Shown: positions 1 to 26,372 of the stretch, one piece after another
How positions within the stretch are numbered: the stretch's first letter is position 1
How the letters are laid out: every line of letters starts with the position of its first letter
Virus record (IMG/VR): IMGVR_UViG_3300042306_000590
Coordinates: 1-37,063 of that record
Source: a virus
Length of the DNA stretch: 37,063 nt
Reading direction: 5' to 3' (one strand)
The notes under the pieces: generated by a model
What the model was told of the DNA's origin: nothing
Seen by the model: the letters and a program-made list of their open reading frames with translations, nothing else
The model's database searches: none
Position numbers and translations under genes: made by a program

Positions 1-3000
1 GTAGACAAAGCCATAATAATACTTAACTCAGCAAGTACTTTACTTATTTGTGCTTTCTGATAGGGTGTATATGTTGACCAGTTTTTAATTACATTGAATT
101 TATACTGTCTAATATCAGACATCATAGTATCTCCAAATGTTCTATAGTATCCTTCAGTTGGTGTACCAATTTCATGATCCATAGATACACGTTTGAATCT
201 TCTCTTATAACCTGGAGCAACATGTTTTCTCCACATTAATGCTAGGCGGCCAAGAGAATGTTTCTGAATTGTACCTTTATCAAAGTCATTATAAACACCA
301 TGCATATACTTATTTAACCCATGAAGTCTAGCTTGAATATCTTGTCTTTGTGTTTCTCCAAAAGGAACATACAAAGGTTTACCATCTTGATCTAGTTCTG
401 CTTCACCCTTGCTATTAGTCTTTGCAATTTTTATTTTGCTGTGTGCCTCATCTGCACCATAGGTATTATATGCTTGGAGTAATGTTATTTCTTCTCCTGT
501 AGCTTTATCTAAAACTTTAATAGAATCAAATAAGGCAAACATAGTTGATACCTGGATTTCATATTCACCAAAGTGTTGGTTAAAGAAAAGAGTATCTGTA
601 CGGAATAATTTATTTGCCATACTCATACTTACTTTCTTACCATAGTTATCTTTGAAGTTACCTTGCATTGGATCATATTTCTCTACTAACTTTCCTGCTA
701 GGCTAGTAGGGGCAGGTTTTCCAAAATCACTTAAGATTCCCGGTAAGTTTTTAGCAAGAAATGCTTTACCTCTTCTTAGATTTTTACGGTTAAAGAACTG
801 TCCACCTACAGCTTCAATCATTATTTGGATATTACCTTGTAAGTTATTGGCCACACCTTTAAGTAAATCAGCTGCAATTGTAGTAATTGCTGAGTAACTC
901 ATAGCTGTATTGGTAATTTTAGTAAGTGATAATCCACCAAAGATCTCTTCAGCTTTTTGCATCTCACCATAAACTACCATGTCTATAAATGCATCAAGAT
1001 GTTTTTTAGAATAGCTCTCACCATTCTGACGGATGTACTCTTCATAACCAAGCTTCTTTGCAAATGCATCTAATACACCTTGACCTTTACTATTTGTTTC
1101 TGGAACTTTACGGGCACCAACAATAGTTTTCATAAGAGATGTTTCAGCATTTATATTATTCAAAGCTTCATACTTATTAGCCATAGCACTAAAGACAAGA
1201 ACAGACATTGCAAAATCTAGTGTAACATCTTTAGCATCCATCTTCTGTGTATAATAAATAGGCAAGAACTTTACATCCTCCTCAGATAATGAACCCAATG
1301 CATACTCTGTATCCCATGATTGCATTTTGACAGCTTCACTTACATTTGTTTTAACAAAGTCTTTGAGACCATTTTGCATTATTCTTTCTAGATCAGACTT
1401 AGAAATAGAAGGAACTCTGAATTCTTTTTGTTGTGATTCAGGAAGTTTAGCTTGAGCTTCAAAATAAATCTTAAGTAACTCAGCATGATATCTACCTTTC
1501 TCATTTTTGGCAACATCATTAGAGTCATACATGGCATCCCATTTATCACTCTTATATTTATTAGATGGAGTTGCAAGATCATCAAAGTAAGTTACTACAC
1601 CTTTATACTCATTTACATTTTTCCTTTGCCATTTATTGTAATCATCCTCACTAATAATTTTGTTGTCTCTATCCTTTTGCATCTGGAGAATAATCTTATC
1701 TCTTTCTTCTTTTGGTCTTGCTTGTGTATTATCTATATACCATTTATTGCGGGCCTCCCACCAAGCCTTGATTTTAGCTGCTTCTTCCTTAGTAGCTTTT
1801 TCTCCAACTTTCTGTGGCAATGGGCCCAACTTTTCAAAGAATTCTCTTTTTGCTTTGTTGAACTTACTCATGTCAAACTTCTGAACAAACTGTATTTCTT
1901 TTCTGCTTCCAGAAATAGTACCGTCTTTATCATATATAGGTATCTCAACTTCATCATAAATTCCTTCATTGAATTTAGCTGTGTTATCTGAAGAAGCCGG
2001 AGCTGTCTTTCTATACTTCTGAAATGCATCAACCAGTCTGTCTCTGACTTTGATATCTTTTTGTCTAGCAAATTCTAACTGACTCTTAACAGACTTAGCA
2101 AATAAAGCCAAGGCACTATCAGAAGATGTAATAAGAGGTGAAAGCAAAAAGTCAAGAACTCCTTCATCCCTATTGGCCATCTTCAGAATCTTCTCCATTG
2201 ACCCTTGATCAACATCAAATCCTTCAAAGAGTTTAAGTCTATCTTCTAGTTTTTTAATTTGTTTTTCTTTTTTCTTATCAGACATTTTGGTATTAGCTTC
2301 AATGTCCTTTATCTCTTGTTGCATTCTTGCTATTTCTTGAGGAATGGTTTTGTCTTGTAGGGTAGACTTGTACTCCACTAAATACTCTGCCATAAGAGGG
2401 ATAGCTTCAGTGACTACTTTTTTCTTTACCTTGTCTCTGATTTTAATAGCGTCCGTTAACATCTTTTGTGGTGTCATTGGGCCATATGTATCTTCTACTC
2501 CAGCTCCTGTTGTAAAATAGTCCATCATATCAGCTGAGTCAATTTCATCTAAGATAGAATAGCTATTTGCAAAGTCATTGATACCAGTCAGCTCAATCAT
2601 GATCTCTTTAGAAGTCATGTTCTTTTTATTAGCCAATAGCTTACCAAATCTAATCTCTACTTGTTTAGCTTTATCATAGGCATCCTTGACAAACATTCCA
2701 ATTGAAGCTACACCATCCATAGTTTCCACAGCAGTAAGTAATTCTTTTAACTTACTCTGCTTGTACTTTACATTTGCAATCTTCTTACTGTTTAAGATCT
2801 CAATTTGTTTGTTGATGTAAACTTTGATTCTTTGTACTAATCCAGAAAAATCATCATTCTCCAGCTCTTCTTGGCCAGGCACTCCTTGACGTTCATCCTC
2901 ATAGTTCTCTTCTTTAACTACAACATTTAAATCTGGATTGAATTCATACTCTTCTTCAATCCAAATTCTCATTGCTTCATCTTCATTACCATGAGCTCTT

Positions 3001-3050
3001 GCAAGAACATCTTGCCATTCTCTACTTGTTTTTCTTGGACAACTTAACAT
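1..3050 (-). CDS. Large C-terminally truncated protein downstream of the virion RNA polymerase (partial, >1016 aa)
   Basis: An open frame runs from the ATG at 3048-3050 to the left edge with no stop, giving 1016 complete codons; the 3' end is outside the window. The start overlaps the stop of the 307-aa gene by 7 bases (ATGTTAAG), the tight coupling typical of this operon. The N-terminus reads MLSCPRKTSREWQDVL, followed by a short helical W-x-x-L...G...A pattern that resembles the N-terminus of the 307-aa protein. The first 350 residues are rich in charged helices, including a K/E-rich coiled-coil-like stretch near residues 235-265. Near residue 700 is a mildly hydrophobic helix, and towards the window edge a basic segment (LALMWRKHVAPGYKRR). 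I recognise no catalytic motif. From its position in the giant-protein block it is probably a virion or transcription-block protein of a crAss-like phage; this is inference. Confidence 0.85.
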   Translation of the reverse strand, partial: MLSCPRKTSREWQDVLARAHGNEDEAMRIWIEEEYEFNPDLNVVVKEENYEDERQGVPGQEELENDDFSGLVQRIKVYINKQIEILNSKKIANVKYKQSKLKELLTAVETMDGVASIGMFVKDAYDKAKQVEIRFGKLLANKKNMTSKEIMIELTGINDFANSYSILDEIDSADMMDYFTTGAGVEDTYGPMTPQKMLTDAIKIRDKVKKKVVTEAIPLMAEYLVEYKSTLQDKTIPQEIARMQQEIKDIEANTKMSDKKKEKQIKKLEDRLKLFEGFDVDQGSMEKILKMANRDEGVLDFLLSPLITSSDSALALFAKSVKSQLEFARQKDIKVRDRLVDAFQKYRKTAPASSDNTAKFNEGIYDEVEIPIYDKDGTISGSRKEIQFVQKFDMSKFNKAKREFFEKLGPLPQKVGEKATKEEAAKIKAWWEARNKWYIDNTQARPKEERDKIILQMQKDRDNKIISEDDYNKWQRKNVNEYKGVVTYFDDLATPSNKYKSDKWDAMYDSNDVAKNEKGRYHAELLKIYFEAQAKLPESQQKEFRVPSISKSDLERIMQNGLKDFVKTNVSEAVKMQSWDTEYALGSLSEEDVKFLPIYYTQKMDAKDVTLDFAMSVLVFSAMANKYEALNNINAETSLMKTIVGARKVPETNSKGQGVLDAFAKKLGYEEYIRQNGESYSKKHLDAFIDMVVYGEMQKAEEIFGGLSLTKITNTAMSYSAITTIAADLLKGVANNLQGNIQIMIEAVGGQFFNRKNLRRGKAFLAKNLPGILSDFGKPAPTSLAGKLVEKYDPMQGNFKDNYGKKVSMSMANKLFRTDTLFFNQHFGEYEIQVSTMFALFDSIKVLDKATGEEITLLQAYNTYGADEAHSKIKIAKTNSKGEAELDQDGKPLYVPFGETQRQDIQARLHGLNKYMHGVYNDFDKGTIQKHSLGRLALMWRKHVAPGYKRRFKRVSMDHEIGTPTEGYYRTFGDTMMSDIRQYKFNVIKNWSTYTPYQKAQISKVLAELSIIMALS

Positions 3051-3967
3051 ATTGCTTTCAATAAGGTTTCTATAACTTTATTTAAATCTTTATCAGTTTT
3101 TGCATCTCTTAAAGACTCATAGATATCTGCAGTATCAATACCTTTTACAGCAAGATACTCATCAAATCTTTGTTCTTTAATCATTTGCAATACTGCTCTG
3201 AAAATTCTATCTCTTTTTGCTTCATCAAGAGGCACACCAGGATCTCCTTCTGGAACCATTTCTCCAGTTTCTAAATCCATGTTTCTAAAGTAAACATCAT
3301 TGTTATACTTATCTACTAAATTGTATAAACCATTTTTGTTTAACTGCCATTTTAAAGTGCCTGCCATAAACTCTACAGGTTTACGTCCTCTATTTGTCTC
3401 TACTATAGACTGATAGGTGCGCAAACTATCTTCCAAATCTATTTCATCAGCACTAGACATCTCTTCTTCAATATCCTCAAAAAGATCATCAGTCTCAGAT
3501 TTAACTCTAGGAGTGATCTCTACTATTATTGAGTTTGGATCTCTTGTTTCACGCAATTTAAAAATATCAGGATAAGCCTCTTGTAACATTTGCATTACCT
3601 TTTTGTTTGGCTTATATATAATTTCTAAAGCTTCAACATTTATAGATGGTAACCTTGAATTTATAAAACCAGTGGTAATAAAGTATGCATCTTGGTATTT
3701 ACTTATAACACCTTTCAACATACTTTTAAGTGCTGTCTCTGACATGTATGGATTAAGCTCCATTGCTCTCTTAATAAAACTAGGAATGTTTTTCTTTTTC
3801 TCAGTAAGCCAGTCTTTAACTTCTTGCTTAGTAGGAATATCAAATGTTGAGTCTTCTGACCTTCCAGTATTTGTAGGATACCCACGGACAAAAGCCTCTG
3901 CCAGAGCGTCACCATAGACACTCTGCAAAGCCTTATAACCTTTATCTGCTTTGTTTATACAACTCAT
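3044..3967 (-). CDS. Hypothetical 307-aa protein between two giant genes
   Basis: A complete ORF of 307 aa. Its ATG overlaps the TGA of the 4211-aa polymerase gene (ATGA), and its TAA lies inside the start region of the following gene, so all three are probably translated in a coupled way. The N-terminus (MSCINKADKGYKALQSVYG) shares the S-C-x-x-K start and a following aromatic-x-x-L...G helix with the downstream gene product. The centre is acidic (residues about 155-180), and the C-terminal 80 residues are a charged helical region ending in KAIC. No enzyme motif, signal peptide or membrane segment is visible. It could be a small accessory subunit of the virion RNA polymerase or a structural linker; position is the only support for either. 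Confidence 0.85.
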   Translation of the reverse strand: MSCINKADKGYKALQSVYGDALAEAFVRGYPTNTGRSEDSTFDIPTKQEVKDWLTEKKKNIPSFIKRAMELNPYMSETALKSMLKGVISKYQDAYFITTGFINSRLPSINVEALEIIYKPNKKVMQMLQEAYPDIFKLRETRDPNSIIVEITPRVKSETDDLFEDIEEEMSSADEIDLEDSLRTYQSIVETNRGRKPVEFMAGTLKWQLNKNGLYNLVDKYNNDVYFRNMDLETGEMVPEGDPGVPLDEAKRDRIFRAVLQMIKEQRFDEYLAVKGIDTADIYESLRDAKTDKDLNKVIETLLKAIC

Positions 3968-6900
3968 GATAATTTACATTTTAAACTTTCAATATATTCT
4001 TCTTCTGAATAGTCAAATGGCATGTTTTCAAATTCATCCATTAAGTCCTCTAAGTTACCTAATATTTTTTTCTGAGCTTCAGTAAGACCATTATAAAATT
4101 CAGATAGCATGACATTTGAACCTCCAGCTACTGTTTTATTAACATTCCTAGATGGTTTTAATGGCATTCCTGGTGTTAGATCTGCAGCTCTTCTGAATGT
4201 AAGTGTGATTGTATAATTACTTATTACTTTTCCGTTTGGTAATGTAATAGGTAACTGACTACCAACTTTAGCATCATTTATAGGTGTAGAATGAGTTAAC
4301 TGAAATCTACCATTTCCATTTAAACCAAATGTATAAATGCTACCGTCTTTAGTAAGTACTTCATTAGTATAACCTTTTAATTTTTCATCACCTCTAAGAT
4401 ATCTATCATCATATTGATTAGCAAAAGTCATCTTACCTTTATTGTTATCTACAATACCTAAACCAGCATTTGCTCCCATAGTATATACAATTACAGGATA
4501 ACCTTCAGCAGACTTAGATTCTGTTACATCTTTATGAGGAAAAATAAATTCATTTGGTTGATATATATTACCTATTACAGAATCATAATCTGACATGTCA
4601 ATACCTAATGCATTTTCAATATCATCAATTATTGGTTGTAATGCAGACATTGGTGGTAATGGATTACCGTTTTGGTCAAGCTCATGATATGCATATGTAT
4701 ACTCACTTGCACCTATAGTATTACCTTTAGCATTCTGTCCTAAATCAATCAATCTATCTCTGACTCCGGTAGGGGCAAATGAATTTATCTTAATTGGTTT
4801 TGCTTTTATAGTAACTCTACTCCACATCTTACCAAAATGAAACATTTGATTAGCTCCTTTTCCTACATTCTCTTTGTATGTTTGAGCTTGTATTTGAGGT
4901 TTTATAAGATCTAAAAACTGTTGTTTTTTAGTTTTACTAGGATTAGTTTCAGCTTGTACAACACCATAATCTTCTGATATTACTTTAACATTATCATTCT
5001 GATTTACAGGTTGTGCAGTTTGATTTAATGTTTTCTCATACACATCTTTAATAGCTTGTTTACCTTGTTCTGTTGTATTAGATGAAGTACCTATTCCAGC
5101 AAAATTTTTAGTTAATACAGGAGTATTTATAGATAAAAAATCTTGTTTAGAAGAATCCCATTTATACCAACCTTGTGGATAAGTACTATTAGCAACTTGA
5201 TTAAATACATAAGTTGGTTTATTCATCATAATACCTAATTGAACAGCTACACTTGTTCCACCATTAACTTGAGGTACTAATGCCTTTTTAGTAACTTTAC
5301 CCATAGAAATAGTAATATCAGTTCCTTTTGGAATTAAAGAACCTATAGCAAAAATTCCATCAGCATTTTTAACCTGTGCATAATTTCTAATCTTTTTTGT
5401 ATTTCTTGTTGTATGATTAGATTCTATTCTACCCATAATTCTTTCAGCATTTGTCACAGCTATTTGAGCTTCACCAGTTGCTGGACCTTGAGTAGCTACA
5501 TCACCAATATCATTGGAGGCATCTACAGGTTTAACACCTTTAGCTTTAAGTCTTGGATCTGAAACATCACCATCTATTGGTAATAAATAATGTTTATCAT
5601 TTACCATTCCAAACTCTTTTCCTATTAAGTCCCATTCAGCATCATAACCTTTAGCACCACCTGAGTGATTTGTAAATTGAGATAAACCTGTAGGTTGATT
5701 TTGAGTAGATGGTTGAGTACCTCTAAGTTCATTTCTTACTTCCATAAGTAATTTAGGAAACTCTTTACCCCATTTAGTTTTATCTTGTGTATGTGTGAGA
5801 GTGGCATTACCTGTAGCAAGTAATTTAGCAAGAGCATCTGGATTTTGTTCAAAAGAAGATTTAATTAAGATTTTCATATTAATTGAAGAATCCGCATCCC
5901 ATCTTTGTTCATCTAATCCTTTTACTGTCCTACCAAATGCTCTAGCCTGAGCTGCTGATTTTTTATTAATATCTTCTACAATAGCATTTTTTTGATCCTC
6001 TGTATAAGATTTACTATAGTTTAATTTCTCTAATTGATAAGCATGCTCCACAGAAGGATAAGTTATACCATCTCCTAACATAAAAGGTCTTTTAGCAAAA
6101 TTACTTAACTCAGCATTTTCTCCTGTACTTGCATAAATATTAATCTTAGTTTCTGGTCCAGGTAAATTACCAGCAGATGGTTGAGTAGGACCTTGTTCTA
6201 AGAAGTCAGACATATCTCCAAAGTCATCTTCAGAGAATGTACTTAAGAAATCTTCTACAGATTCTTCTTCATTTAAATTACTTGGGTCAATCATGTAGTT
6301 TTTAAACTGAGACTTTGCATTCAATCTGTTATAGATTCTTTCTAATGTTTCTTCTGACAAATCATTATTCAAGAAAGAGTTTGCAGCATTTTGCATAATT
6401 TCAGTAAACGCCTCTGGATCCAAGACTTTAACAAATCCTAATTTAGAATAACCAGTTCCATGTTGATAATACATAAACATAGAAAAGTTTTTGAAAACAT
6501 CACTGATTCTATTATTATCCATTTTCTGAACTTCCTTATTGGAGTTTACTACTTTTCTTACAGTATAATCTGCTAGTTGTCTAAGATTTTTATAATAATC
6601 ATCAGCAACAGTTCCTTTAGCTGTAGCTTTATCATTCAACTCTAAAACATTTACATCTTTTGTAAATTTAGCTGGAGCCAATTGAGCCAGTACAGGAAAG
6701 TTATCTTTGATGTTTTGGTCTTCAAACTCATTAATTATATCCATAACCATTGTAGTATATGAATACTTAGTAGTACCCATAATAAATGCACGGTTATAAC
6801 TGTTCATCAATGCTGTTTGAGTAATATATTTATCATAACCCAAATCTTCTGAGCCTGCTTGGAAAGAAAGCTTAAGAAAGTCTTTATTCTTAGCTAAAGA

Positions 6901-9900
6901 TTCTTTAGTGTAAACAGTAGTTAAATATTCTTTCTCTATTGCAAACTTAAGATAAGTTGGAAATGTTGGGAAAGGATTTTCTCCAGCATCAAATGTATCT
7001 AAGTTTTTAGCTCTGTTACCTTCTGGAGTATTATTTGAACTCAAGAATATCCTAGCATCAAAATCTTTTCTAGCTTGTTCTAAATTAACTTTTACATCCT
7101 TATCTGTAAATGATACTGCAGGACCTGTTGTTACTTCTTTAATTGGTAAGCTGTGAACTGATTCCGGTAGGGTAACCGGGCTTCCATCATTATCAAGAGA
7201 GTTAGACTTAGTATTCTGGAAAATGTAATTTACCACTGCATTGTTGTACATGTTAATAAATCTTTCTTTTCCTTTTACACCTGGTCCAAACTTTTGAACA
7301 ATCATATCTCTAGTTTGGTCTATCTTTTTCTCAACAAACTTTGAGATAGTTTCATTAAGTCTCAATGGAAATAATGGAACTACAAGATCCATAATCAAAC
7401 CACTCTTATAGAATGAAGAAAGAATAGAATCTTTTCTTAGTCTTTTTAAGAAATCAGAATCAATTTTAGATGTTTCATCAAATAGTTTAAATGCATCATC
7501 CCTCTTCTTAATCTGAAGAGTAGTATCCATTAAACCTGTGTCTGGACTAAATGCCATTTCCAATTCATCCATTCCCTTAAATTGTTTTTCTAACTGCAGC
7601 ATGTGCATTAAAATAGCCAAGTTTTCTATACTAGGATTGCGTCCTCCTCTTACTAAAGATTGTAATCTATCTTTAGAAACTGTAGAAGATCCTGGGAATG
7701 CTCTATTCCATAAAGCCTCTGATGCATAATAGAAGTTATCATTATTAGCAATACCACCGGATCTTTTGAATAAAGTTTTTAAACTATCATAGTCTGTATT
7801 TTCTTCAAATTCTTTTAACTCAATAATTTGATCTACTGGAAAGTCATTACTATGAAATATTCTTTTTCCAGTAGCTTTTTTTAGAACTTCTTCTCCTTCT
7901 GCATCTTTTGTTTTAATGATGTAAACTTTATCTTGATCCTTTTGTTTTAGCATATCAGCTATGTCCATCATTCTGCGGTCATTTGCATAGTTTGCAACCT
8001 GCTTAACTATTTTCTTCATTTCTTCACCACCTGCAGAAACAAGAGAAGCAACAGTCTCCCTAAAGGCTGTAGATTTTACTTGATGACTAGGAACAGGTGC
8101 TTCTTGAAGTTTAGCCATTGAGCCTCCATAGTACATTTGTTTCTGAATGTAATCTACAATCCAAGGGTTATTGATAAAAGCAAATACTTCTGGTACACTT
8201 ACTCCAGCTTCAATAAGGTGATTGATTGTACCCAATGCCTCTTTTACAATTTGTAATTTAAATGGAAAAGGATTATTAGCACGGTCAAGCAAACCTTGAA
8301 GACCATGAGAAAAAATATCTCCAATCTTTTCACCATCTACATTATTCTGATTAGATAAAGAAATATTTTCATTAAACATAGTTTTATTATGTCTCATACG
8401 GATTACAACATCATACTGAGCAGGAATTTCATCATACTTTTTAGTTTCATCATTCCACACAGTGGCATTGTATGATAACGGCATAATAGCTCCTACACTT
8501 TTGAATAATGCATGCACTTTGTTTTTCTTGGCCATAATACCAAGCGGCATATTACCAGATAACATTGCTTCATGCTGACTTAAGTTGTAATCATTATCTA
8601 ATGATCTTGATGGACTCATTACTTCTTTGTCACCATTTATCCTTACAGACTCACCATGTGCATTCTTTTTGTTGTTATACCCTCTAGAATACTTGTCATA
8701 GAATTCAACTTCATCTTCTACAAGATATGTATTATTAGGTTTTGTTAAACTTGCATGATTATCCGGTAAGGAGAGTATATCCCGCGTGCTTTTGATTAAC
8801 TTGTTTTGTGCAGCTTTTTTGTACTGATCAATTAAAGCTTGAGGATTTGGTAACCCTTTTTCTTTTCTTACTTTTTTGCTAACACTATTAGATTCTTTTA
8901 CCATCTTGGTAAGCTGTTCCAAATTTTCTGCAGGTGCCTTAGTTAAAGTACCATCAGAATTTATATTTGGTAGCATGAAGAAAATCTTATCAACGTCAAA
9001 GTCAGATCCAGCTTTTGCAACAATCTCAGTTGGTACAATTACTGTGTTACCTGCACTAGCATCAAGGAAGTGCCATACTTCAGCAAATTCCATAGAGTTA
9101 GCAGCATCTGTTGGGATCCTTGGTCCTACAATAGTGATAAGCTCTCTGTTCTTATCTAACCACTCATCATTTTTAATTAACTCATTAAGACGGTCTGTAG
9201 TTCCAATAAGTTCTCCATCAGGATGTTTTAAATTAAGAATGTTCAAAAAGTCACCATTCATAGGTATTGCAACTTTCATAGCTGAAGTTGGTTGTCTTGT
9301 ACCATCTTTATTTAATTTACCTCTAGTATAAAAAGGTAAGTTGTTAGAACCCAGATATTTTCTGATTAATTCATCATTATTTTTAATAGCTTCATCTCTT
9401 TGGTAGGCACTGTCCCACACACCGTTATAGAACGTGGATGGAGCTTGAACCATAGATTCTCCCTTTGTCTTCTGTTTTATTATACTTTTTTGAATTCTAT
9501 TTACAATAACTTTCTCAAGCATGTCTGCCTCCGGGTGAATAGAAAAGTCCATAGATAGCTGATCACTAAGTGTAGTATCCAGAAGTTTAATCAAATGCTC
9601 AGGAACTTCTTTAGCTCCTAATTCATCTCTGATAAGTTCAATAAACTTATCTAACTTTCCAACATACTTTTCTGTCTTAGGATCATATTCATAACCTATC
9701 TTGTTTAATAAATCCAGAGCTAATGTTTCAGTGTAATCCTTAACATTAGCTTTGTAGTTATTAGCTATTTCAGCATTTGCTTTGTTAATTACATCTCCAA
9801 CATTGAAGAGACCATCTAATAATAATACACGTTTCTGAGTAGGATAGCTAATTTCTTTCTTAAGTTTGCTTGCAACTTTAGTTACATCCTTAAGATACTC

Positions 9901-12900
9901 CAAGTAGATAACATTTTTTCTAATTGGTGCATCTGCAGAAACTGTTTTCTGTGTTTCATCACCAAAGATGTTATCAAAGTCTCCAGTCATAGTAAGTGTG
10001 GCAACTTTAGAACCAGAACCAAATGCTACATACTGAAGATTTTCCTTCATCATTTTTACATGTAAATTATAAAGCTCTGTACCTTTTACTGCAATAGTTG
10101 GAATAATAGGAGCTACTGCAAACTTATGCATTCCTGTTGTTGCTATAGGAGCATTAGCAATTGATCCATAGTAATGAAGTTTGTAAATTGGAAAGAACTC
10201 TTTTACTTTTAAAGGATCAACTTGTTCTCCGGCAACAATCTGTTGGTATAATGTTTCTTGCGGAATGGTCCAGCTTTTACCTTGTTTTTTAAGTGTACGG
10301 TATGCATCAAATGTCATAAAGGCTGCACCATCAGATTCTGTCATCTTCTTATAGGCCTTAGCATCTTTTGCAAGTCTTCTATCTATTTCTTTCTTTAATG
10401 CAGCTTTATCTGTGTATAAAGGGGTTAGGGCAGCTGTATATTGCTCTTTCCAGCTTTCTAACATTTCATCTAGATATACAGACTTTCTTTCTGCATCTGC
10501 TATGACACCGGTATTCAATGTACCATTCATAACAAACTTATCTAAGTCAAGACCTGTTTCTTTAGCAAGTTTTTTAGCATAAGTATTCTTGTTGAACACT
10601 TTGTTAATGAATTCATGCATGTACTTATCATTGACAAATCCATCACCATCTGATGTAGAACCAGGTGCACGTTTACTTGCTTGTTGTTTGTCATGATTGA
10701 ACTGAGAAAGATCACCATTGAAAATGTTAAACATTTCAAATTTATGTATCCAGTCATTAAACAAATAAGATTTAAGAACAGTTTTCTTTGATTCATCAGA
10801 TATATCACCTTTAGTGTCTATACCAGCTTTTTCATAAACCTTATTGTCTACATAAGGCAGATCTTTAAAGTAATCATTATACATTGCTTCTGTTTTCTCA
10901 GTGAAATAATCAGCAATGTCTTTTTGAATTTTTAAATAAAGTCCTTGGTTATTTCTGATATGGGTAGGTAAATCTACCAAAGGATCGGATGCTAAAGCAT
11001 ATAAATCTTTTTTGGTTTGATCTCTCAAGATGTTATCAAAAGCAGTGAAGAATTCTCCAGCTCTACCAATTAATTTATCATTCTTATCTTTAATCTCTCT
11101 GTTATAACCTTTGATATTTTTAAGATCCTGTGGATTCTGTTTAAAGTATCTGATTCTATCAAACTCTGCAGCAATATAGTCAAGGAAATAACCACCTACA
11201 GCAACTATTTCTCCATCACTAATTTGTTCATTTGGTTTAGTTACAAACTTACTGATATCAATGTATAAGCTTTGATCAACACCATTTGTAATACCATTGA
11301 CAATAACTTTCATTTTACCACCCAGTAACTTGATACCATATGCAGATTTCTTTTCAGCATGGCGGATAAACTCTGCTATACCATTTAAGCTCATAGTATG
11401 AAACTCTTGAAAGAATTTACCTAACTTATCTAAGTCAGATGTATTCACTCCTTCCATCTCTGCTATCTGTGTACCTGCAGTTTGTAAAAGCTCTAAAGAT
11501 CTGGTTCCTTTTCTATCAAAGGTTCCTTGAGCAGTGTCAAACATAGCTCCAAAAATTTTAGATCTTAAAGTAAAGAATGATTTACCTGGTCTCAAGTGTG
11601 ACATATAACCTAGCTCTGGTTTGCTCCAGAAATCACTAAGATTTTCAACATTGTTTATTGCATCTACAGTAACTGTAACTTGACTATGGTTTACATTTTC
11701 AAATACTCTGTTACCGTCCGGTAGCAAAATACCTGGATTAGCAGAATCATATCCATACTGAGATTGCAACTCAGCAATTCTTTTAAGGATATTCTTTTCT
11801 GCTACTTCTTTCTTAAAGCTTTTTAGTATTCCTTTTGGAATTTCACCTCTTAGTGTCCCTACTGGATTACTAACAAATTTGTTTAAGAATTCAAGTTGTT
11901 GTTCAGTGCTTTTATTTGATTTCTGAATGTCAGAAAAATCTTTTATAATATCATAGATATATGGTAACCCAAAATACTCTGCTCTATCTTCTATATTTTT
12001 TTTGATAACTGGTAAAGCATCAAGCTTCATACCTAATGCTGCAGCAAACTCAAATGCTTTAGATGTATCTAACTGACCAGGATATTTCTTATTCTCAAAT
12101 GCAGTAATTACGTCATCCAGTTTTAAAGTAGATTGGTTATCTGAATTCTTTTCTATGTAATCATTTGCTATACTACTTTTGAAAATTGATTCAAATTTTC
12201 TAATAGTACTGTCTACTTCAATAGATGATTGAGTAACATCAGCTTCAAATCCTTTTAATATATTTTCTGATTCCCCTGTAAGGAAGTTTGTTCCCGGCTC
12301 GTATTGTGGGAACACAGTGAATTGCCAGTATTTAACTGAAGGTTTTGCAAATGTTTGCCAGAATGAATTACTCACATCTATTTCAAATGTATTAGTAATC
12401 AATCTTGGATCTGGGAATTTAGTTTCAATAAGCTGAGCTATTTCTGGAAAGTTTTTTGCTTCTGCCATTAATGTCTCATATGCTTTTTCTCTATCTCTTA
12501 TACCACCAATTGCTTTAGTAACAATGTTCCAAACCTTTTTAAAATCTGCGCGCTCTTTAAAACCAAGTCTGTTGTATGAAGTATTACCATTACGGTCTAC
12601 TTTATATAAACTTTTAAGAATGTAGATTACTTCTTTATCAGCTAGTTGCATCAAAGATTTTTTAGTACCCGCTGAACTACCAAATGGTGTTTCAGAATCA
12701 TGAGTTTCATTTTCTTGATCTTCATCAATCTCATCACCATTCTCATCTAACATATCAAGATCAAGCTCATATTTCTTTTTAGATAAATCAAAATCTGAAT
12801 TCTCTAAGTGATATGCAATTGTTCCAGTAGCTTCAATACCTTTAATATCCCATTGTGGATCTCCAAAGTTATCTACAGCAGCTTGTAGAATTCTAACATT

Positions 12901-15900
12901 ATCTAACATAAATTCTTGTTCTGCAGACAACATGTAATCAGGAACATCTTTAACTTCAAAATCTGTATACTCTTCAGCTCCTCCAGCTTTGTAATTATCA
13001 AACTGAACTTGAGCATCCTCTAAACTAGAAACTACAATTATCCCTACCGGCTTCTTACCTTTCTTAATAGATTTATGTGAATAGAAATCACCAACTATTT
13101 TGATACCATGCCAAGACTCACCTCTAACTCTGGTACCTCTACGCATGTTAGCATCAAGATTATCAAAACCATCAATCTGTGATTTAAGGAATACATATTT
13201 GTCTTCTCCTTTGTTAGATCTTAATACAGCTACTGCTTCTGATTCAATTGTTTTCTGATTAGGGTCAGAAGATTCTAAAGCTTTAATTTCACTAAAAGGT
13301 GTTACACCTTCTTGAGAATGTAATTTTTCTTTAAACTCATCCAACTTATCTTGTAATCTTTCTTTGATTACCTCATACATGAATGCACGGTGGTCTGGAT
13401 CAATAAGTAAACCAATAGTTCCAGATTTTAAACTATTATAGTTACCAGTTTCTTCAGCTTCTTCAACTCTTTCTCTGTACCAATCATCAACAAAATCAGA
13501 AATGATCATGTCCATAGTATCAGAAACTAATCTAGAATCTTGATCACTAAGGGCACTATCACTTGGTCTATTTAACTTGCTGATACCACGGTTCAACATC
13601 ATAAAGTCAACATTATCTATATTGGCTTTGTATGATCTCACAAATGATTTCTTATTAGAACTATAGTTTAATTTCTCAAACAATTCTCTCACAGCTGGAA
13701 CATTCATTACATCTGTGATAACTTCAGTTGGATTAATTGCTTTTTTACCAAACAAGCTTCTGATAAAATTCATAATCTTTCTGAAGAGTTTATTTCTTAT
13801 AGGAGAACCTTTCTTAATGTAATTGCTCTTCATATAAGTTCTAAAGTCTTCAGCTAGTAACTCATCAACTGCCTTATAGTCCATAGACTTATAGGGTTGG
13901 TTTCCGCTGGCATCTTTGTAATTAATTACTTCATCATAAAGACTGTATTTTTCTTGGCGGGTAAGAAACAATTGAGAGAAACCATGCCATGCTTCATGGT
14001 AAACATCAACCAATGTACCTACACCTTTATTAATTTGAATCTTACCTTTAATATCAGGATTGGCCAATGTAGCACCGCTAACTACAAAGCGCGCAAATAC
14101 ATCTGAGTTAACCAGATTAAATGCATGTTGTAGTTCAATATGTTTTTGTAACTCTTTTCCTAATGCCGTATTGTTCCACCAGTCAAGGACTTTAGCTGTA
14201 TCTTCTTCACCAATTTCATCAGCCATATATCCTTCACGGTTTAAGCTATCATTCTTAGGTGCTCTAGAACGTAAGCTTCCTTTCTTAGGAGAAGGATTTA
14301 TTGTTGTTGGGTCTGGCATTTCAGGCTCAACAGTTTTTTGGATTATTTCAACTTCTCTCTGAAGAGGTCCTTCTGCTTTTGGAAATGCTCTATTGATTAT
14401 ATCAGTAACTGTATTAATTTGTTTACCGTTTATGTATCTTGCACCGGCAAATATATCACGTAACTGTTCAGCAGCTTCTCTGGTATATCTTTGACTAATA
14501 TTAGTATTGATAGCTTGAATAAGGCTTGCAGCATAATAGTATGTATCATACTTTCCTTCCATTCCTTGTTGAGCTAACTGAGCTCTAAACTCTGGAGAAA
14601 GAGCGCGATCAGCAATAACTTGTGCCTCAATTTCCATAGGAGATTTATCAGCATTTTCCAATGCTTTTCTTTCTTCTGCTAATTTAATTGATTCCTCAAG
14701 GGCCTCTTCAAATGTTTGTGATGCTGCCGCAGAAGCAATTTTAATTTCTTTTTCCACTTTATTCTCTTCATTAAACAACAGGTGCTTATTGTAGAAACCA
14801 GGATCTCCGTCAAATAAATCAACGTAACCATCAAGTGTGGATAAAAAATCAATGTAGTTTGCAACTTCAATTTGTTTTGTATTTGAATTGTATACTAAAT
14901 ACTCCTCATCATTCAACAAGTCAGATTTGTATGACATGTAAGTTGCTTTACCATTAGCTCTACCAGATTTGAGAGTGTCACTAAAAGTCTTAATACCGGC
15001 ATCTAATTTTTCTCTACTAGCCTTATCTAATACAGCTTTAGAAATAACAAAATCAAAAATAGGCTCAGTAACAAATCCATACTTGTCACCTACTTTATCA
15101 TATAGCTTAATTCTAAATGATTGGTTCACCATATCAGGAATGATCTCATGCTTTCTCATAGTATAAGCAAGCTTGGTTGTACTATCTTCCGGAATAAACT
15201 GTGAATAGAAATCTTTTTTAGTTTCAAAAGGAATATTAGGATCAAACATAACTGCAGCAATCTGGTCAGCTACACTGTCTGGCATAGATGATCTGTTTAC
15301 TTGGAAGTCTGTTCCATTTAAATTAATTACAGCTCTACCCTCTCCAAAGTTACCTTCTGCTTTTTTAAGAGTACGGATACTCTTTAAGTCTTTCTTTGTT
15401 GCTCCTGGTATCTTTAGAAAGTCCGATAGGGGAAGTTTGGTAGCTGTAAGATCTGAAGTAACTCCGGCACTAAGACCTGAGAATTCCAACATCATGTCAT
15501 TACCTAATGCACTTTCTCTTATTTGAAACAATCTCTTAAGTTCTTTCTCTCTATCATCTTTTACTTTCTCAAGATATGTAGGATAGTCTCCGTCAATTTT
15601 TTCATCATATGTTAGTTGGGCATAAGTCTCAATTGGCATTAACTGTTCTTCTTTTCCATAGATATCTGTTACTGTATAACCTTTTGAGGTTTGTCTAACA
15701 TCTCTCATGAATTGATACACTAGAGTTCCATTACCTTTAGTAGTAAGGTTTCCTTCTGTATCAAAATATAAGTTCTGTCCAGCATCATCTGTAATAACAA
15801 GTATTACTCTTTTATCACTTTGAGTAACACCTTCTTTATTTCTTCCTGTGCTAGTATAAAAGTTTGAATCCTTAATCTCTTGCTGAGTTGTAGGATCTAA

Positions 15901-16599
15901 ATCATTAAAATTCTGTTGAGCAAATGCATATAAGTTTGTTGCTTTAACTTTTACTTTCTTTCCTTGATATGTAAACTCTCCATCAAATGGATCTTGCATA
16001 CTTAATACATCACCTAGAATTGCAAGATTAGTAAGGATTTGAGCTCTTGGTTTATCAAGTCTTTCTGAGTAAGTATCAGTTTTTCTAGAAGGATCTACCG
16101 GAACAAATGATTGAAGTGTACCAGACATAACCACAGGAGTTTTAAGTCTTGCTTCAACTCTTGGATTTGTTTCTTTTTTCTCATCTTCAGGACCCTCTTC
16201 TTCTTCATCAGAAAATTCAAGTGATAGTTGATGTGCAGCCTCTCCTTTTAAATCTTTAGTATCTACAGGTTTTATATATTTCTTAAGTACATTCTGAAAT
16301 CCTTCACCGTTTGGTTTTGAGAAATCAGCCATCAACCCGTAAATATTTTCTAATCCTTTTACTAAAGGAATCTTATCACTAAATGATTTTGTAATAATTA
16401 AATTTATTACACGCGGAGTACTTTGCAACCATTTAGCTGCAGTTTCAGGATCAGCCTTTTTAACTGATTCCTCAAACAACTTCTCCATGAAATCATTTAC
16501 GTCAAAGGTTTTATCATTTCCTAGTCTATCTTTAATAGCGCGGAATACATACTTGTAAAAATTTTCAAGAGGTAACTGGGTAATTGGACAACTGATCAT
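3964..16599 (-). CDS. Giant multidomain virion RNA polymerase (4211 aa) with zincin, NADAR, SLOG-like and AlkB-like domains
   Basis: A single uninterrupted chain of 4211 aa, starting at ATG 16597-16599 four bases after the upstream stop. Visible order: an N-terminal region with no known motif; a zincin-type HEAWH at 868-872 with candidate third-ligand Glu at 913 or 917; a long alpha/beta region; a polymerase segment around 2491-2544 with GPRIPT followed by GSDFDVDK, the three Asp of DFDVD (2533, 2535, 2537) matching the metal-binding DxDxD of beta'-type double-psi barrels; then NADAR (3486-3627), SLOG-like (about 3640-3860) and AlkB-like (about 3895-4150) domains joined by Q/P/T/N-rich linkers. 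In studied crAss-like phages the single-chain polymerase is packaged in the virion and transcribes early genes after ejection. By homology the same role is expected here. The known phi14:2 enzyme is, as I recall, about half this length, so the extra C-terminal enzymes are unusual. The zincin may process the chain or a host barrier; that is inference. Confidence 0.92.
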   Translation of the reverse strand: MISCPITQLPLENFYKYVFRAIKDRLGNDKTFDVNDFMEKLFEESVKKADPETAAKWLQSTPRVINLIITKSFSDKIPLVKGLENIYGLMADFSKPNGEGFQNVLKKYIKPVDTKDLKGEAAHQLSLEFSDEEEEGPEDEKKETNPRVEARLKTPVVMSGTLQSFVPVDPSRKTDTYSERLDKPRAQILTNLAILGDVLSMQDPFDGEFTYQGKKVKVKATNLYAFAQQNFNDLDPTTQQEIKDSNFYTSTGRNKEGVTQSDKRVILVITDDAGQNLYFDTEGNLTTKGNGTLVYQFMRDVRQTSKGYTVTDIYGKEEQLMPIETYAQLTYDEKIDGDYPTYLEKVKDDREKELKRLFQIRESALGNDMMLEFSGLSAGVTSDLTATKLPLSDFLKIPGATKKDLKSIRTLKKAEGNFGEGRAVINLNGTDFQVNRSSMPDSVADQIAAVMFDPNIPFETKKDFYSQFIPEDSTTKLAYTMRKHEIIPDMVNQSFRIKLYDKVGDKYGFVTEPIFDFVISKAVLDKASREKLDAGIKTFSDTLKSGRANGKATYMSYKSDLLNDEEYLVYNSNTKQIEVANYIDFLSTLDGYVDLFDGDPGFYNKHLLFNEENKVEKEIKIASAAASQTFEEALEESIKLAEERKALENADKSPMEIEAQVIADRALSPEFRAQLAQQGMEGKYDTYYYAASLIQAINTNISQRYTREAAEQLRDIFAGARYINGKQINTVTDIINRAFPKAEGPLQREVEIIQKTVEPEMPDPTTINPSPKKGSLRSRAPKNDSLNREGYMADEIGEEDTAKVLDWWNNTALGKELQKHIELQHAFNLVNSDVFARFVVSGATLANPDIKGKIQINKGVGTLVDVYHEAWHGFSQLFLTRQEKYSLYDEVINYKDASGNQPYKSMDYKAVDELLAEDFRTYMKSNYIKKGSPIRNKLFRKIMNFIRSLFGKKAINPTEVITDVMNVPAVRELFEKLNYSSNKKSFVRSYKANIDNVDFMMLNRGISKLNRPSDSALSDQDSRLVSDTMDMIISDFVDDWYRERVEEAEETGNYNSLKSGTIGLLIDPDHRAFMYEVIKERLQDKLDEFKEKLHSQEGVTPFSEIKALESSDPNQKTIESEAVAVLRSNKGEDKYVFLKSQIDGFDNLDANMRRGTRVRGESWHGIKIVGDFYSHKSIKKGKKPVGIIVVSSLEDAQVQFDNYKAGGAEEYTDFEVKDVPDYMLSAEQEFMLDNVRILQAAVDNFGDPQWDIKGIEATGTIAYHLENSDFDLSKKKYELDLDMLDENGDEIDEDQENETHDSETPFGSSAGTKKSLMQLADKEVIYILKSLYKVDRNGNTSYNRLGFKERADFKKVWNIVTKAIGGIRDREKAYETLMAEAKNFPEIAQLIETKFPDPRLITNTFEIDVSNSFWQTFAKPSVKYWQFTVFPQYEPGTNFLTGESENILKGFEADVTQSSIEVDSTIRKFESIFKSSIANDYIEKNSDNQSTLKLDDVITAFENKKYPGQLDTSKAFEFAAALGMKLDALPVIKKNIEDRAEYFGLPYIYDIIKDFSDIQKSNKSTEQQLEFLNKFVSNPVGTLRGEIPKGILKSFKKEVAEKNILKRIAELQSQYGYDSANPGILLPDGNRVFENVNHSQVTVTVDAINNVENLSDFWSKPELGYMSHLRPGKSFFTLRSKIFGAMFDTAQGTFDRKGTRSLELLQTAGTQIAEMEGVNTSDLDKLGKFFQEFHTMSLNGIAEFIRHAEKKSAYGIKLLGGKMKVIVNGITNGVDQSLYIDISKFVTKPNEQISDGEIVAVGGYFLDYIAAEFDRIRYFKQNPQDLKNIKGYNREIKDKNDKLIGRAGEFFTAFDNILRDQTKKDLYALASDPLVDLPTHIRNNQGLYLKIQKDIADYFTEKTEAMYNDYFKDLPYVDNKVYEKAGIDTKGDISDESKKTVLKSYLFNDWIHKFEMFNIFNGDLSQFNHDKQQASKRAPGSTSDGDGFVNDKYMHEFINKVFNKNTYAKKLAKETGLDLDKFVMNGTLNTGVIADAERKSVYLDEMLESWKEQYTAALTPLYTDKAALKKEIDRRLAKDAKAYKKMTESDGAAFMTFDAYRTLKKQGKSWTIPQETLYQQIVAGEQVDPLKVKEFFPIYKLHYYGSIANAPIATTGMHKFAVAPIIPTIAVKGTELYNLHVKMMKENLQYVAFGSGSKVATLTMTGDFDNIFGDETQKTVSADAPIRKNVIYLEYLKDVTKVASKLKKEISYPTQKRVLLLDGLFNVGDVINKANAEIANNYKANVKDYTETLALDLLNKIGYEYDPKTEKYVGKLDKFIELIRDELGAKEVPEHLIKLLDTTLSDQLSMDFSIHPEADMLEKVIVNRIQKSIIKQKTKGESMVQAPSTFYNGVWDSAYQRDEAIKNNDELIRKYLGSNNLPFYTRGKLNKDGTRQPTSAMKVAIPMNGDFLNILNLKHPDGELIGTTDRLNELIKNDEWLDKNRELITIVGPRIPTDAANSMEFAEVWHFLDASAGNTVIVPTEIVAKAGSDFDVDKIFFMLPNINSDGTLTKAPAENLEQLTKMVKESNSVSKKVRKEKGLPNPQALIDQYKKAAQNKLIKSTRDILSLPDNHASLTKPNNTYLVEDEVEFYDKYSRGYNNKKNAHGESVRINGDKEVMSPSRSLDNDYNLSQHEAMLSGNMPLGIMAKKNKVHALFKSVGAIMPLSYNATVWNDETKKYDEIPAQYDVVIRMRHNKTMFNENISLSNQNNVDGEKIGDIFSHGLQGLLDRANNPFPFKLQIVKEALGTINHLIEAGVSVPEVFAFINNPWIVDYIQKQMYYGGSMAKLQEAPVPSHQVKSTAFRETVASLVSAGGEEMKKIVKQVANYANDRRMMDIADMLKQKDQDKVYIIKTKDAEGEEVLKKATGKRIFHSNDFPVDQIIELKEFEENTDYDSLKTLFKRSGGIANNDNFYYASEALWNRAFPGSSTVSKDRLQSLVRGGRNPSIENLAILMHMLQLEKQFKGMDELEMAFSPDTGLMDTTLQIKKRDDAFKLFDETSKIDSDFLKRLRKDSILSSFYKSGLIMDLVVPLFPLRLNETISKFVEKKIDQTRDMIVQKFGPGVKGKERFINMYNNAVVNYIFQNTKSNSLDNDGSPVTLPESVHSLPIKEVTTGPAVSFTDKDVKVNLEQARKDFDARIFLSSNNTPEGNRAKNLDTFDAGENPFPTFPTYLKFAIEKEYLTTVYTKESLAKNKDFLKLSFQAGSEDLGYDKYITQTALMNSYNRAFIMGTTKYSYTTMVMDIINEFEDQNIKDNFPVLAQLAPAKFTKDVNVLELNDKATAKGTVADDYYKNLRQLADYTVRKVVNSNKEVQKMDNNRISDVFKNFSMFMYYQHGTGYSKLGFVKVLDPEAFTEIMQNAANSFLNNDLSEETLERIYNRLNAKSQFKNYMIDPSNLNEEESVEDFLSTFSEDDFGDMSDFLEQGPTQPSAGNLPGPETKINIYASTGENAELSNFAKRPFMLGDGITYPSVEHAYQLEKLNYSKSYTEDQKNAIVEDINKKSAAQARAFGRTVKGLDEQRWDADSSINMKILIKSSFEQNPDALAKLLATGNATLTHTQDKTKWGKEFPKLLMEVRNELRGTQPSTQNQPTGLSQFTNHSGGAKGYDAEWDLIGKEFGMVNDKHYLLPIDGDVSDPRLKAKGVKPVDASNDIGDVATQGPATGEAQIAVTNAERIMGRIESNHTTRNTKKIRNYAQVKNADGIFAIGSLIPKGTDITISMGKVTKKALVPQVNGGTSVAVQLGIMMNKPTYVFNQVANSTYPQGWYKWDSSKQDFLSINTPVLTKNFAGIGTSSNTTEQGKQAIKDVYEKTLNQTAQPVNQNDNVKVISEDYGVVQAETNPSKTKKQQFLDLIKPQIQAQTYKENVGKGANQMFHFGKMWSRVTIKAKPIKINSFAPTGVRDRLIDLGQNAKGNTIGASEYTYAYHELDQNGNPLPPMSALQPIIDDIENALGIDMSDYDSVIGNIYQPNEFIFPHKDVTESKSAEGYPVIVYTMGANAGLGIVDNNKGKMTFANQYDDRYLRGDEKLKGYTNEVLTKDGSIYTFGLNGNGRFQLTHSTPINDAKVGSQLPITLPNGKVISNYTITLTFRRAADLTPGMPLKPSRNVNKTVAGGSNVMLSEFYNGLTEAQKKILGNLEDLMDEFENMPFDYSEEEYIESLKCKLS
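3968..3985 (-). promoter_or_regulatory. AT-rich junction motif before the 307-aa gene
   Basis: On the coding strand TTTAAAATGTAAATTATC directly precedes the ATG. Similar TTTAAAT..TAAT sequences precede three other starts in this window. It may be the A/T-rich initiation context used in Bacteroidota phages instead of a Shine-Dalgarno, or part of a phage promoter. The motif overlaps coding sequence of the gene before it. Confidence 0.3.
4150..4917 (-). other. AlkB-like 2-oxoglutarate/Fe(II) dioxygenase domain
   Basis: Residues about 3895-4150 at the C-terminus of the giant chain. An N-x-Y strand (GNIYQPNEF) leads into FPHKDVTES, an H-x-D iron motif at 4022-4024. A second histidine sits in RFQLTHSTP (His4103). 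The closing strand YTITLTFRRA supplies the final Arg4136 expected to bind 2-oxoglutarate. This order (HxD ... H ... TFR) is that of AlkB-family enzymes, which remove alkyl lesions from nucleic acid bases by oxidation. E. coli AlkB has an additional Arg six residues before the final one; here that position is Thr, so substrate or cofactor contacts may differ. Confidence 0.8.
5020..5682 (-). other. SLOG-like (Rossmann, nucleotide-binding) domain
   Basis: Residues about 3640-3860. The opening HSGGAKGYD (His3645) is the glycine-rich first loop typical of SLOG/LOG-type folds, with DAEWD and KEFG helices after it. Further on come RNYAQVKNADGIFAIG, VNGGTSVAVQLG and KPTYVFNQ, which fit later strands of the same fold. 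The domain ends with NFAGIGTSS (GIG at 3835-3837) and an EQGKQAIKDVY helix. SLOG domains bind nucleotides or NAD-derived ligands, and members act in cytokinin activation and as sensors in anti-phage systems. Its place next to NADAR points to ADP-ribose or NAD-derived ligands, an inference. It could also be a catalytic phosphoribohydrolase. Confidence 0.65.
5719..6144 (-). other. NADAR (YbiA-like, ADP-ribose glycosidase-type) domain
   Basis: Residues 3486-3627 follow the NADAR/YbiA family closely: INIYAS at the start, ELSNFAKRPF, then YPSVEHAYQLEK with the conserved Glu3518, an A-x-A-x-x-x-GR-x-VKG segment, W, a K-x-SFEQNP helix, LLATGNATL, a D-x-x-KWG motif and a final LLMEVR helix. The Gly/Asn-rich loop that normally precedes LM-x-x-R is shortened here. 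NADAR proteins act on ADP-ribose-type N-glycosides; some remove ADP-ribose from guanine in DNA or RNA, others belong to the riboflavin-intermediate family. Q/P/T-rich linkers flank the domain (3469-3485 and 3628-3640), which suggests an independently folding cassette. Confidence 0.85.
8968..9129 (-). other. RNA polymerase beta'-like catalytic barrel with DFDVD motif
   Basis: Residues 2491-2544 carry GPRIPT, a beta-rich stretch, then GSDFDVDKIFF. The spacing of R-x-P to the Asp triad resembles the catalytic double-psi beta-barrel of multisubunit and YonO/crAss-like RNA polymerases, where three Asp bind Mg2+. The residue between the second and third Asp is Val instead of the Gly of the cellular DFDGD. 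About 60 residues upstream is a Lys-rich strand region (RGKLNKDG, SAMKVAIP), which may belong to the partner barrel; I cannot assign that with confidence. Confidence 0.85.
13825..14052 (-). other. Zincin metallopeptidase motif (HEAWH) inside the giant polymerase chain
   Basis: Residues 868-872 of the 4211-aa protein read HEAWH in the context VDVYHEAWHGFSQLFL, a good match to HExxH on an amphipathic helix. About 40-45 residues downstream the helix DELLAED offers Glu913 or Glu917 as the third zinc ligand, as in gluzincins. Metalloprotease domains are known in crAss-like phage giant proteins. The substrate cannot be told from sequence: self-processing of the polyprotein, or a host envelope protein, are both possible. 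Confidence 0.7.
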
Positions 16600-23257: not shown

Positions 23258-23274
23258 TGGTATTAATATTTAAA
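23258..23274 (-). promoter_or_regulatory. AT-rich junction motif before the 2217-aa gene
   Basis: On the coding strand TTTAAATATTAATACCA precedes the ATG and includes the last codons (F-K-Y) and TAA of the 1030-aa gene. It is the closest relative of the motif before the polymerase gene. Function could be translation initiation or transcription; neither is shown. Confidence 0.3.
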
Positions 23275-26355: not shown

Positions 26356-26372
26356 AATTAAATATATTTAAA
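26356..26372 (-). promoter_or_regulatory. AT-rich junction motif before the 1030-aa gene
   Basis: On the coding strand TTTAAATATATTTAATT precedes the ATG and contains the end and stop of the homing endonuclease gene. The last bases, TTAATTATGGC across the start codon, are repeated exactly at the endonuclease's own start. Confidence 0.35.

Follow-up and report, generated by a model that had tools for sequence, protein, structure and literature searches.

The polymerase locus

The window analysed here is a stretch of viral DNA of 37,063 nucleotides, corresponding to positions 1 to 37,063 of the IMG/VR record IMGVR_UViG_3300042306_000590. Its minus strand carries a block of genes for giant proteins (Table 1), in which the open reading frame (ORF) 3964–16599 encodes a chain of 4211 amino acids (aa). 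By sequence comparison this chain fits a Crassvirales virion RNA polymerase: it is a giant protein, it contains the DxDxD motif, and crAss-like RNA polymerases such as phi14:2 g066 (21.8%) and p-crAssphage gp44 (22.9%) match its core. Window positions 4150–6144 (minus strand) correspond to residues 3486–4150 of this chain. A sequence-only reading of the same DNA had placed three enzyme-type domains in a row behind the polymerase in this region, namely NADAR, SLOG and AlkB, set off by Q/P/T- and Q/N-rich linkers. All three are recovered here, with differing firmness, and the linkers around them are indeed rich in Q, P, T and N. A second IMG/VR record (L007) is identical to window positions 1–16180 and to the whole upstream protein, so that the NADAR-SLOG-AlkB polymerase arrangement was assembled in a second record too. 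In L007 the downstream block protein is complete and has 1143 aa.

Table 1. Positions in the window of the putative polymerase, its cassette and the other proteins of the block (2OG, 2-oxoglutarate; Cys, cysteine)
Feature	Position	Strand	Remarks
Putative crAss-like virion RNA polymerase with payload cassette, 4211 aa	3964..16599	minus	Cys only at residues 4 and 4208
NADAR domain, residues 3486-3628	5716..6144	minus	Pfam and YbiA match; E3518, K3525, His3603
Candidate SLOG/DprA-like domain, residues 3640-3861	5017..5682	minus	SGGAKG motif at 3646; fold not confirmed
AlkB-like Fe(II)/2OG dioxygenase, residues 3889-4150	4150..4935	minus	Profile and Foldseek
DFDVD catalytic motif (DxDxD), residues 2533-2537	8989..9003	minus	Three Asp invariant in seven aligned sequences
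N-terminal junction Cys4	16588..16590	minus	
C-terminal junction Cys4208	3976..3978	minus	
Upstream block protein, 2217 aa	16604..23257	minus	Ends ...NFKC; Cys at residues 1015 and 2217; N-terminal region without Cys
Middle protein of the same block, 307 aa	3044..3967	minus	Cys only at residues 3 and 307
Downstream block protein	3..3050	minus	Truncated at the window end; one Cys, at residue 4

Identity of the three fused domains

The NADAR assignment is secure at the level of sequence. The domain matches Pfam PF08719 (E 3e-12, 47.5 bits versus a curated cut-off of 35.1), YbiA (2b3w, E 1.1e-7) and a solved NADAR structure. E3518 and K3525 lie seven residues apart, like the catalytic pair E88/K95 in the E. 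coli C7 NADAR, a Glu and a Lys being named as catalytic in PMC11543638. Both are invariant in 13 of 13 aligned domains. The third catalytic residue of NADAR, in the last strand, is Glu, Asp, or His in phages; His3603 is located in the last part of the window domain, one position off the Glu of YbiA in a gap-free alignment.

The AlkB identity is confirmed by a predicted model together with a profile search. The model (mean predicted local distance difference test 77.8, predicted template modelling score 0.84) has AlkB entries as its best Foldseek matches (E 2.4e-8), and a profile of 14 aligned domains, one of them from the window, retrieves AlkB, ALKBH2, ALKBH3 and ALKBH1 when run against the PDB. 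The AlkB-like residues are N4011-x-Y4013, H4022-x-D4024, E4027, H4103 and R4136, and the Fe ligands H4022, D4024 and H4103 (H134, D136 and H215 in alignment A2) are invariant in 14 of 14 aligned domains. Two points weigh on the other side. The Pfam model 2OG-FeII_Oxy_2 matches the window alone at E 0.0016, under the Pfam cut-off, and a Thr occupies the position aligned with the first 2OG-binding Arg of AlkB (which we take to be Arg204), the second Arg being found. As one 2OG-binding Arg is replaced, activity of the window domain is not to be taken for granted; both are present in the relatives L012, L025, L029, L058 and L059.

The SLOG/DprA-like identity is the least firm of the three. It rests mainly on PHROG 768 ('DprA-like'), which matches 12 of 12 aligned domains (best 2.2e-13), the E-value for the window's own domain being only 0.0017. 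This latter domain has no Pfam hit, and Pfam LDcluster4 was found in one of 13 domains (E 0.0037). A SLOG profile gave no credible match in the PDB, and the predicted model no Foldseek match at E<=0.001. Structure prediction, called for by the sequence-only reading, bore out the AlkB fold and did not confirm that of SLOG. The model ended at residue 3830 while the match to L009 runs to residue 3861; one strand may thus be lacking. The VIA-align matches (best 3imk, Z 4.4), which include a putative molybdenum carrier and nucleoside deoxyribosyltransferases (Z <=4.4), were too weak and were not used. Taken as sequences, the three domains appear to be more than chance resemblances: they recur in related polymerases, and the 11 pairs compared show ratios of non-synonymous to synonymous substitution (dN/dS) of 0.09–0.62, i.e. 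purifying selection.

Related polymerases carry a variable cassette

For comparison, 57 distinct complete polymerase chains were taken from relative loci found in database scans. Excluded were chains truncated at a locus end, chains shorter than 2,500 aa and chains whose last 300 residues were identical. The main scan for relatives comprised the best 80 of 489 confirmed relatives, and the sample is accordingly weighted towards the part of the order closest to the window; the chains form 54, 40 and 27 clusters at 90, 70 and 50% identity, respectively. A Pfam scan (E<=0.001) of 58 C-termini, i.e. the window and the 57 relatives, found 2OG-FeII_Oxy_2 in 12, AAA_30 (SF1 helicase) in seven, NADAR in six, ART-PolyVal in five, cpYpsA in four, AAA_33 in two and RNase H in one. 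RecD, RecD2 and TraA helicases are among the NCBIfam models that match polymerase C-termini, and polynucleotide-kinase-like domains also occupy the cassette position in relatives. With the profiles built here, NADAR, SLOG or AlkB is present in at least 15 of the 57 chains, an undercount, as the AlkB of L041, L056 and L101 was found by Pfam and missed by these profiles. The order of the recurring domains varies: NADAR-SLOG-AlkB in the window, SLOG-AlkB-NADAR in L012, AlkB-SLOG in L029, AlkB-NADAR in L047 and NADAR-AlkB in L019, with NADAR located ahead of the polymerase core in L003 and L013. ART-PolyVal lies between SLOG and AlkB in L025, just under its cut-off, and an A1S_2505 family domain directly precedes NADAR in L011 and L017 (NCBIfam 1e-32 and 2e-15), L011 also having ART-PolyVal. 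The cpYpsA domains of L034, L038 and L047 gave no match to the profile of the window SLOG family and were kept apart. Two Schitoviridae, Pylas (L002 9118–9561) and Alteromonas phage PT15-A5 (L004 9863–10210), also have SLOG within their virion RNA polymerase (vRNAP), a separate recruitment into an ejected polymerase; both of these polymerases have no Cys at all.

Comparison of the sequences indicates that the cassette is modular and exchanged between phages. The SLOG domain of the window shares 84% identity with its counterpart in L009, where the polymerase is only 20.5% identical over residues 1303–2759, and 40% with that of the sister phage L024, whose chain is 77% identical (residues 1–3909) and whose polymerase core is 85% identical. 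Within NADAR, the DNA of the window (5719–6147) and of L011 and L014–L017 is 80–94% identical at the ends between otherwise distant phages, with a diverged middle, a pattern that suggests recombination within NADAR itself. Where the window has NADAR, L024 has a domain that matches the NCBIfam models A1S_2505 (3e-6) and DarG (2.4e-4). The two DarT classes have NADAR and the macrodomain DarG as their antitoxins (PMC11543638), and L024 therefore looks like a case of one ADP-ribose-removing domain replaced by another. There is modest evidence for this apparent swap of NADAR for a DarG-like domain. Against it, both matches are under the curated cut-offs, and the L024 domain was not recognised as a macrodomain by Pfam or PDB searches; it had no relative in the phage collection.

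The fused domains share a further property with the chain to which they belong, the exclusion of Cys. There is no Cys in SLOG (16 pieces, 2470 aa) or AlkB (14 pieces, 3167 aa) and a single one in NADAR (14 pieces, 1978 aa). In a control of 68 NADAR stretches from bacterial and archaeal genome contigs, we counted 9.4 Cys per 1000 aa, with at least one Cys in 46 of the 68; this cellular control covers NADAR only, and a few of its stretches (such as L109 and L110) belong to long frames and are possibly of phage origin. The giant vRNAP of N4-like phages has been reported to lack Cys, and this lack was linked to passage through tail and periplasm (PMC3715699, PMC3915230). That the fused domains share the chain's Cys exclusion and precede its C-terminal Cys can be read as evidence that the cassette travels with the polymerase, and to this extent the idea of a payload is strengthened by the sequences. 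The lone NADAR Cys, a point against it, belongs to the gut phage cr131_1, where it is located in the second part of a split polymerase with further interior Cys.

Terminal cysteines of the polymerase and its neighbours

All 57 chains have a Cys at residue 3–5, counted from the first Met as start, and all 57 have one in the last eight residues. Exactly these two Cys are present in 51 of the chains, and interior Cys amount to seven in 217,476 aa. The flanking proteins carry the junction Cys only at the end facing the junction. For the upstream protein it is in the last eight residues in 53 of 54 cases and in the last 10 in all 54 (three chains had no qualifying upstream ORF, and most upstream ORFs are incomplete at their far end). 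In the last protein a Cys lies among the first eight residues in 57 of 57 cases (17 cut at the far end), and none of the 40 complete ones has a Cys within 10 residues of the C-terminus. Six small proteins between polymerase and last subunit have Cys at both ends. A 197-aa ORF of L076 in this position (Cys 10, 22 and 190) fits imperfectly.

Chance as the cause was rejected with a control of 165 non-overlapping ORFs of at least 100 aa. These were picked greedily from stretches of seven annotated crAss genomes, leaving aside the block itself, and contain 660 Cys in 53,161 aa (12.4 per 1000), with a Cys in the first eight residues in one, in the last eight in 11 and at both ends in none. A poorer control consisted of 55 mechanical metagenome ORFs, some of them perhaps spurious or antisense; it had 9.8 Cys per 1000 aa, with 14, five and one, respectively. 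An overlap of start and stop codons (ATGC plus stop) fits some junctions, such as that of the 307-aa ORF with the last subunit. It was rejected as general cause of the C-terminal Cys, as the distance from Cys to stop is 0 to 7 residues and both Cys codons are used. Moreover, the upstream gene is on the other strand in crAss001 and cr85_1, and gene adjacency cannot therefore be the cause.

The pattern was followed in ten annotated Crassvirales genomes from three families; cr126_1 and cr131_1 were covered in part and are outside the count. In crAss001, gp47 has the C-terminal Cys only, gp50 has Cys at both ends plus one interior, and gp49 has the N-terminal one only. Similarly, in phi14:2, g067 has the C-terminal Cys only, g066 has Cys 3 and 2179 of 2180 residues, and g065 the N-terminal one only. 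Cys was found within nine residues of the end at 25 of 26 junction flanks, the exception being cr110_1 gp40 (residue 17 of the annotated start), and in all ten genomes the first protein lacks an N-terminal and the last protein a C-terminal Cys. Fused proteins behave according to the junction that is left. Where BLAST finds the polymerase followed by the last subunit, in p-crAssphage gp44 and jaberico RNAP2, Cys 3 is present and the C-terminal region is without Cys. Where it finds the upstream protein followed by the polymerase, in cr4_1 gp26, cr130_1 gp79 (a weak match, E 9e-5) and cr108_1 gp054, the Cys is at the polymerase C-terminal end and the N-terminal region is without Cys. This polarity, the retention of the Cys when the genes are separated and their loss at fusions suggest a physical link between consecutive cargo proteins as the best explanation of the pattern, although other thiol-based contacts are possible. 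On the other side, interior Cys occur in several gut phages, with as many as 26 in the 5801 aa of cr130_1, and polymerases split inside DFDxD (cr108_1, i.e. L108 gp054/gp053, and cr131_1, i.e. L005 gp48) have no Cys at the split. The same is true of the L097 polymerase, which is split elsewhere. These splits may be introns or frameshifts.

Some observations concern other genes of these loci. Two more long minus-strand ORFs of the window, 23263–26355 and 32477–37006 (1030 and 1509 aa), have no Cys, and neither has crAss001 gp46 (cargo 2). Between two long ORFs of the window sits a GIY-YIG homing endonuclease ORF (26358–26993, minus strand, Pfam 2.4e-9). It begins with MATYLQ, as does the next ORF (23263–26355), and it looks inserted at the start of that gene. 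In L024 (G002 contig 49668–55775), the relative of the upstream protein aligns as three gapped pieces, suggesting an inserted or missing stretch.

Possible role of the cassette

We consider it fairly probable that the crAss-like virion polymerase doubles as a delivery vehicle for swappable enzymes that clean or protect phage DNA or blunt NAD-based immunity. The sequence-only reading had supposed that related polymerases are packaged, and this holds: homologous polymerases are virion proteins with a known activity in early transcription in crAss001 and phi14:2, gp47, gp49 and gp50 of crAss001 having been found in virions by mass spectrometry (PMC10172136). Ejection of this part of the chain is inferred from relatives, and its catalysis and the targets of its enzymes are inferences as well. 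The modules behind the polymerase core would enter the cell with the polymerase, ahead of any phage gene expression. NADAR would remove ADP-ribose (known on guanine), the SLOG/DprA-like domain would bind nucleotides, and AlkB would remove alkyl groups from nucleic acid. Their likeliest job would be to clean or protect the incoming DNA and the early transcripts from host base modification of the DarT kind and from alkylation; alternatively, such a delivered set could destroy NAD-derived signals of host immunity. Modules would be exchanged between phages as hosts differ. The earlier proposal of a pre-made payload is thus supported by the shared Cys exclusion, the module exchange and the homologues in virions; the enzyme targets stay putative. 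Weighing against this explanation, a phage NADAR hydrolysed guanosine-ADP-ribose in vitro and did not rescue cells from DarT1 (PMC11125620), and soluble ADP-ribose derivatives have been favoured as targets of phage NADAR and SLOG (PMC9503650).

The latter proposal leads to another explanation, which we regard as possible and would not put higher than that: the modules act on small NAD-derived immune signals rather than nucleic acid, NADAR and SLOG binding or destroying messengers of the cyclic ADP-ribose type and SLOG regulating the protein. Soluble targets have been argued for phage NADAR, SLOG and Macro domains, SLOG being often combined with NADAR and Macro (PMC9503650), and domains linked to ADP-ribose do crowd the cassettes of relatives, as in L011 (NADAR, A1S_2505 and ART-PolyVal) and L025 (ART-PolyVal). 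However, the AlkB, RecD-like helicase, RNase H and polynucleotide-kinase-like domains found in the same position act on nucleic acid, and the NADARs tested so far act on guanine-ADP-ribose in DNA (PMC11125620, PMC11543638); of the NADARs of E. coli and its phages, four kinds were assayed, and all of them hydrolysed guanosine-ADP-ribose (PMC11125620). The modules could also serve the nucleic acids of the phage itself at a late stage of infection or in packaging, their entry into the cell being incidental, and the structural and most cargo genes of crAss001 are in fact transcribed late (PMC10136315). This is improbable in our opinion, given that a late-only enzyme would need no fusion to a packaged polymerase and that the fused domains share the Cys exclusion of the chain and precede its terminal Cys. 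Finally, the loss of one 2OG-binding Arg in the window and the NADAR mosaic, with ends conserved at the nucleotide level and a diverged middle, could mean that the cassette is inert or in decay and is carried along by recombination. The dN/dS values of the 11 pairs argue against this, as do the invariance of H4022, D4024 and H4103 in 14 domains and that of the NADAR Glu and Lys in 13, and we think it very unlikely.

If the cassette is delivered with the polymerase, the terminal Cys offer a view of how this may occur. We tentatively propose, and would rate its chances as slightly short of even, that consecutive injected crAss-like proteins are joined head to tail via their terminal Cys into a covalent train that carries the exchangeable payload enzymes. 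The order would be upstream protein, polymerase with payload, optional small proteins and last subunit. Each link would consist of the C-terminal Cys of one protein and the near-N-terminal Cys of the next, most simply as a disulfide, and a Cys-free interior would leave only the ends able to pair. Disulfides have been seen in the crAss001 tail by cryo-electron microscopy (PMC10172136). The train would be threaded through the tail in a fixed order and would dissociate once in the reducing cytoplasm; payload such as NADAR or a DarG-like macrodomain would be loaded into its wagons and swapped between phages.

Crassvirales have been called the most abundant viruses of the human gut (PMC10172136), and their giant polymerase proteins have to pass a tail channel narrower than 50 angstrom (PMC10136315). 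The terminal-Cys rule bears on how these proteins get through and arrive together, and it provides a simple test on virions already in laboratories (crAss001, phi14:2). With the polymerase also a putative carrier of exchangeable enzymes, a cassette census would list the host defences met in the first minute of infection, and the apparent exchange of NADAR for a DarG-like domain makes an encounter with ADP-ribosylation-based defence directly testable.

Comparison with known systems

Compared with known crAss-like polymerases, the window chain is alike in its core, which matches g066 and gp44, in the DFDxD motif found in g066 and gp50, in the block of giant proteins and in the terminal Cys. It differs in size, with 4211 aa including the cassette versus 2180 aa for g066 and 2412 aa for gp50; p-crAssphage gp44 owes its length to a fusion with the last subunit. 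Some of these proteins already bear the labels DUF1768 and DprA-like in GenBank. A crAss genome survey (PMC7886860) does not mention NADAR, DUF1768 or DprA in its main text, and in the open-licence PMC literature we found no description of NADAR, AlkB or terminal Cys in crAss polymerases. The AlkB-like domain has N-x-Y, H-x-D, the distal His and one Arg in common with E. coli AlkB and the ALKBH proteins, at about 15% identity. As for the DarT1-NADAR and DarTG2 systems, NADAR and macrodomain are alternative ADP-ribosyl-DNA hydrolases there (PMC11543638), and the sister phage L024 seems to alternate likewise; in contrast to those systems, the window NADAR belongs to a putative virion polymerase. 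No DarT was recognised in Pfam scans of nine long minus-strand ORFs of the window, the record being a fragment.

N4-like vRNAP belongs to a different polymerase family than the crAss type. It is likewise a giant ejected polymerase without Cys, and that of Pylas and PT15-A5 has SLOG; with no Cys in the two examined, the terminal Cys pair is not shared. In N4-like phages, an ejected polymerase that is fused to disparate enzymes is already familiar as the polyvalent-protein theme; their vRNAP with ART, lysozyme and PBECR was described as a polyvalent protein (Iyer et al. 2017, PMC5512222). NADAR, SLOG, AlkB and crAss are absent from the text of PMC5512222, and the window polymerase is of the crAss type. 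Like the polyvalent proteins, the window chain is a multidomain, virion-linked chain with unrelated enzymatic domains, the link to the virion being here by homology only.

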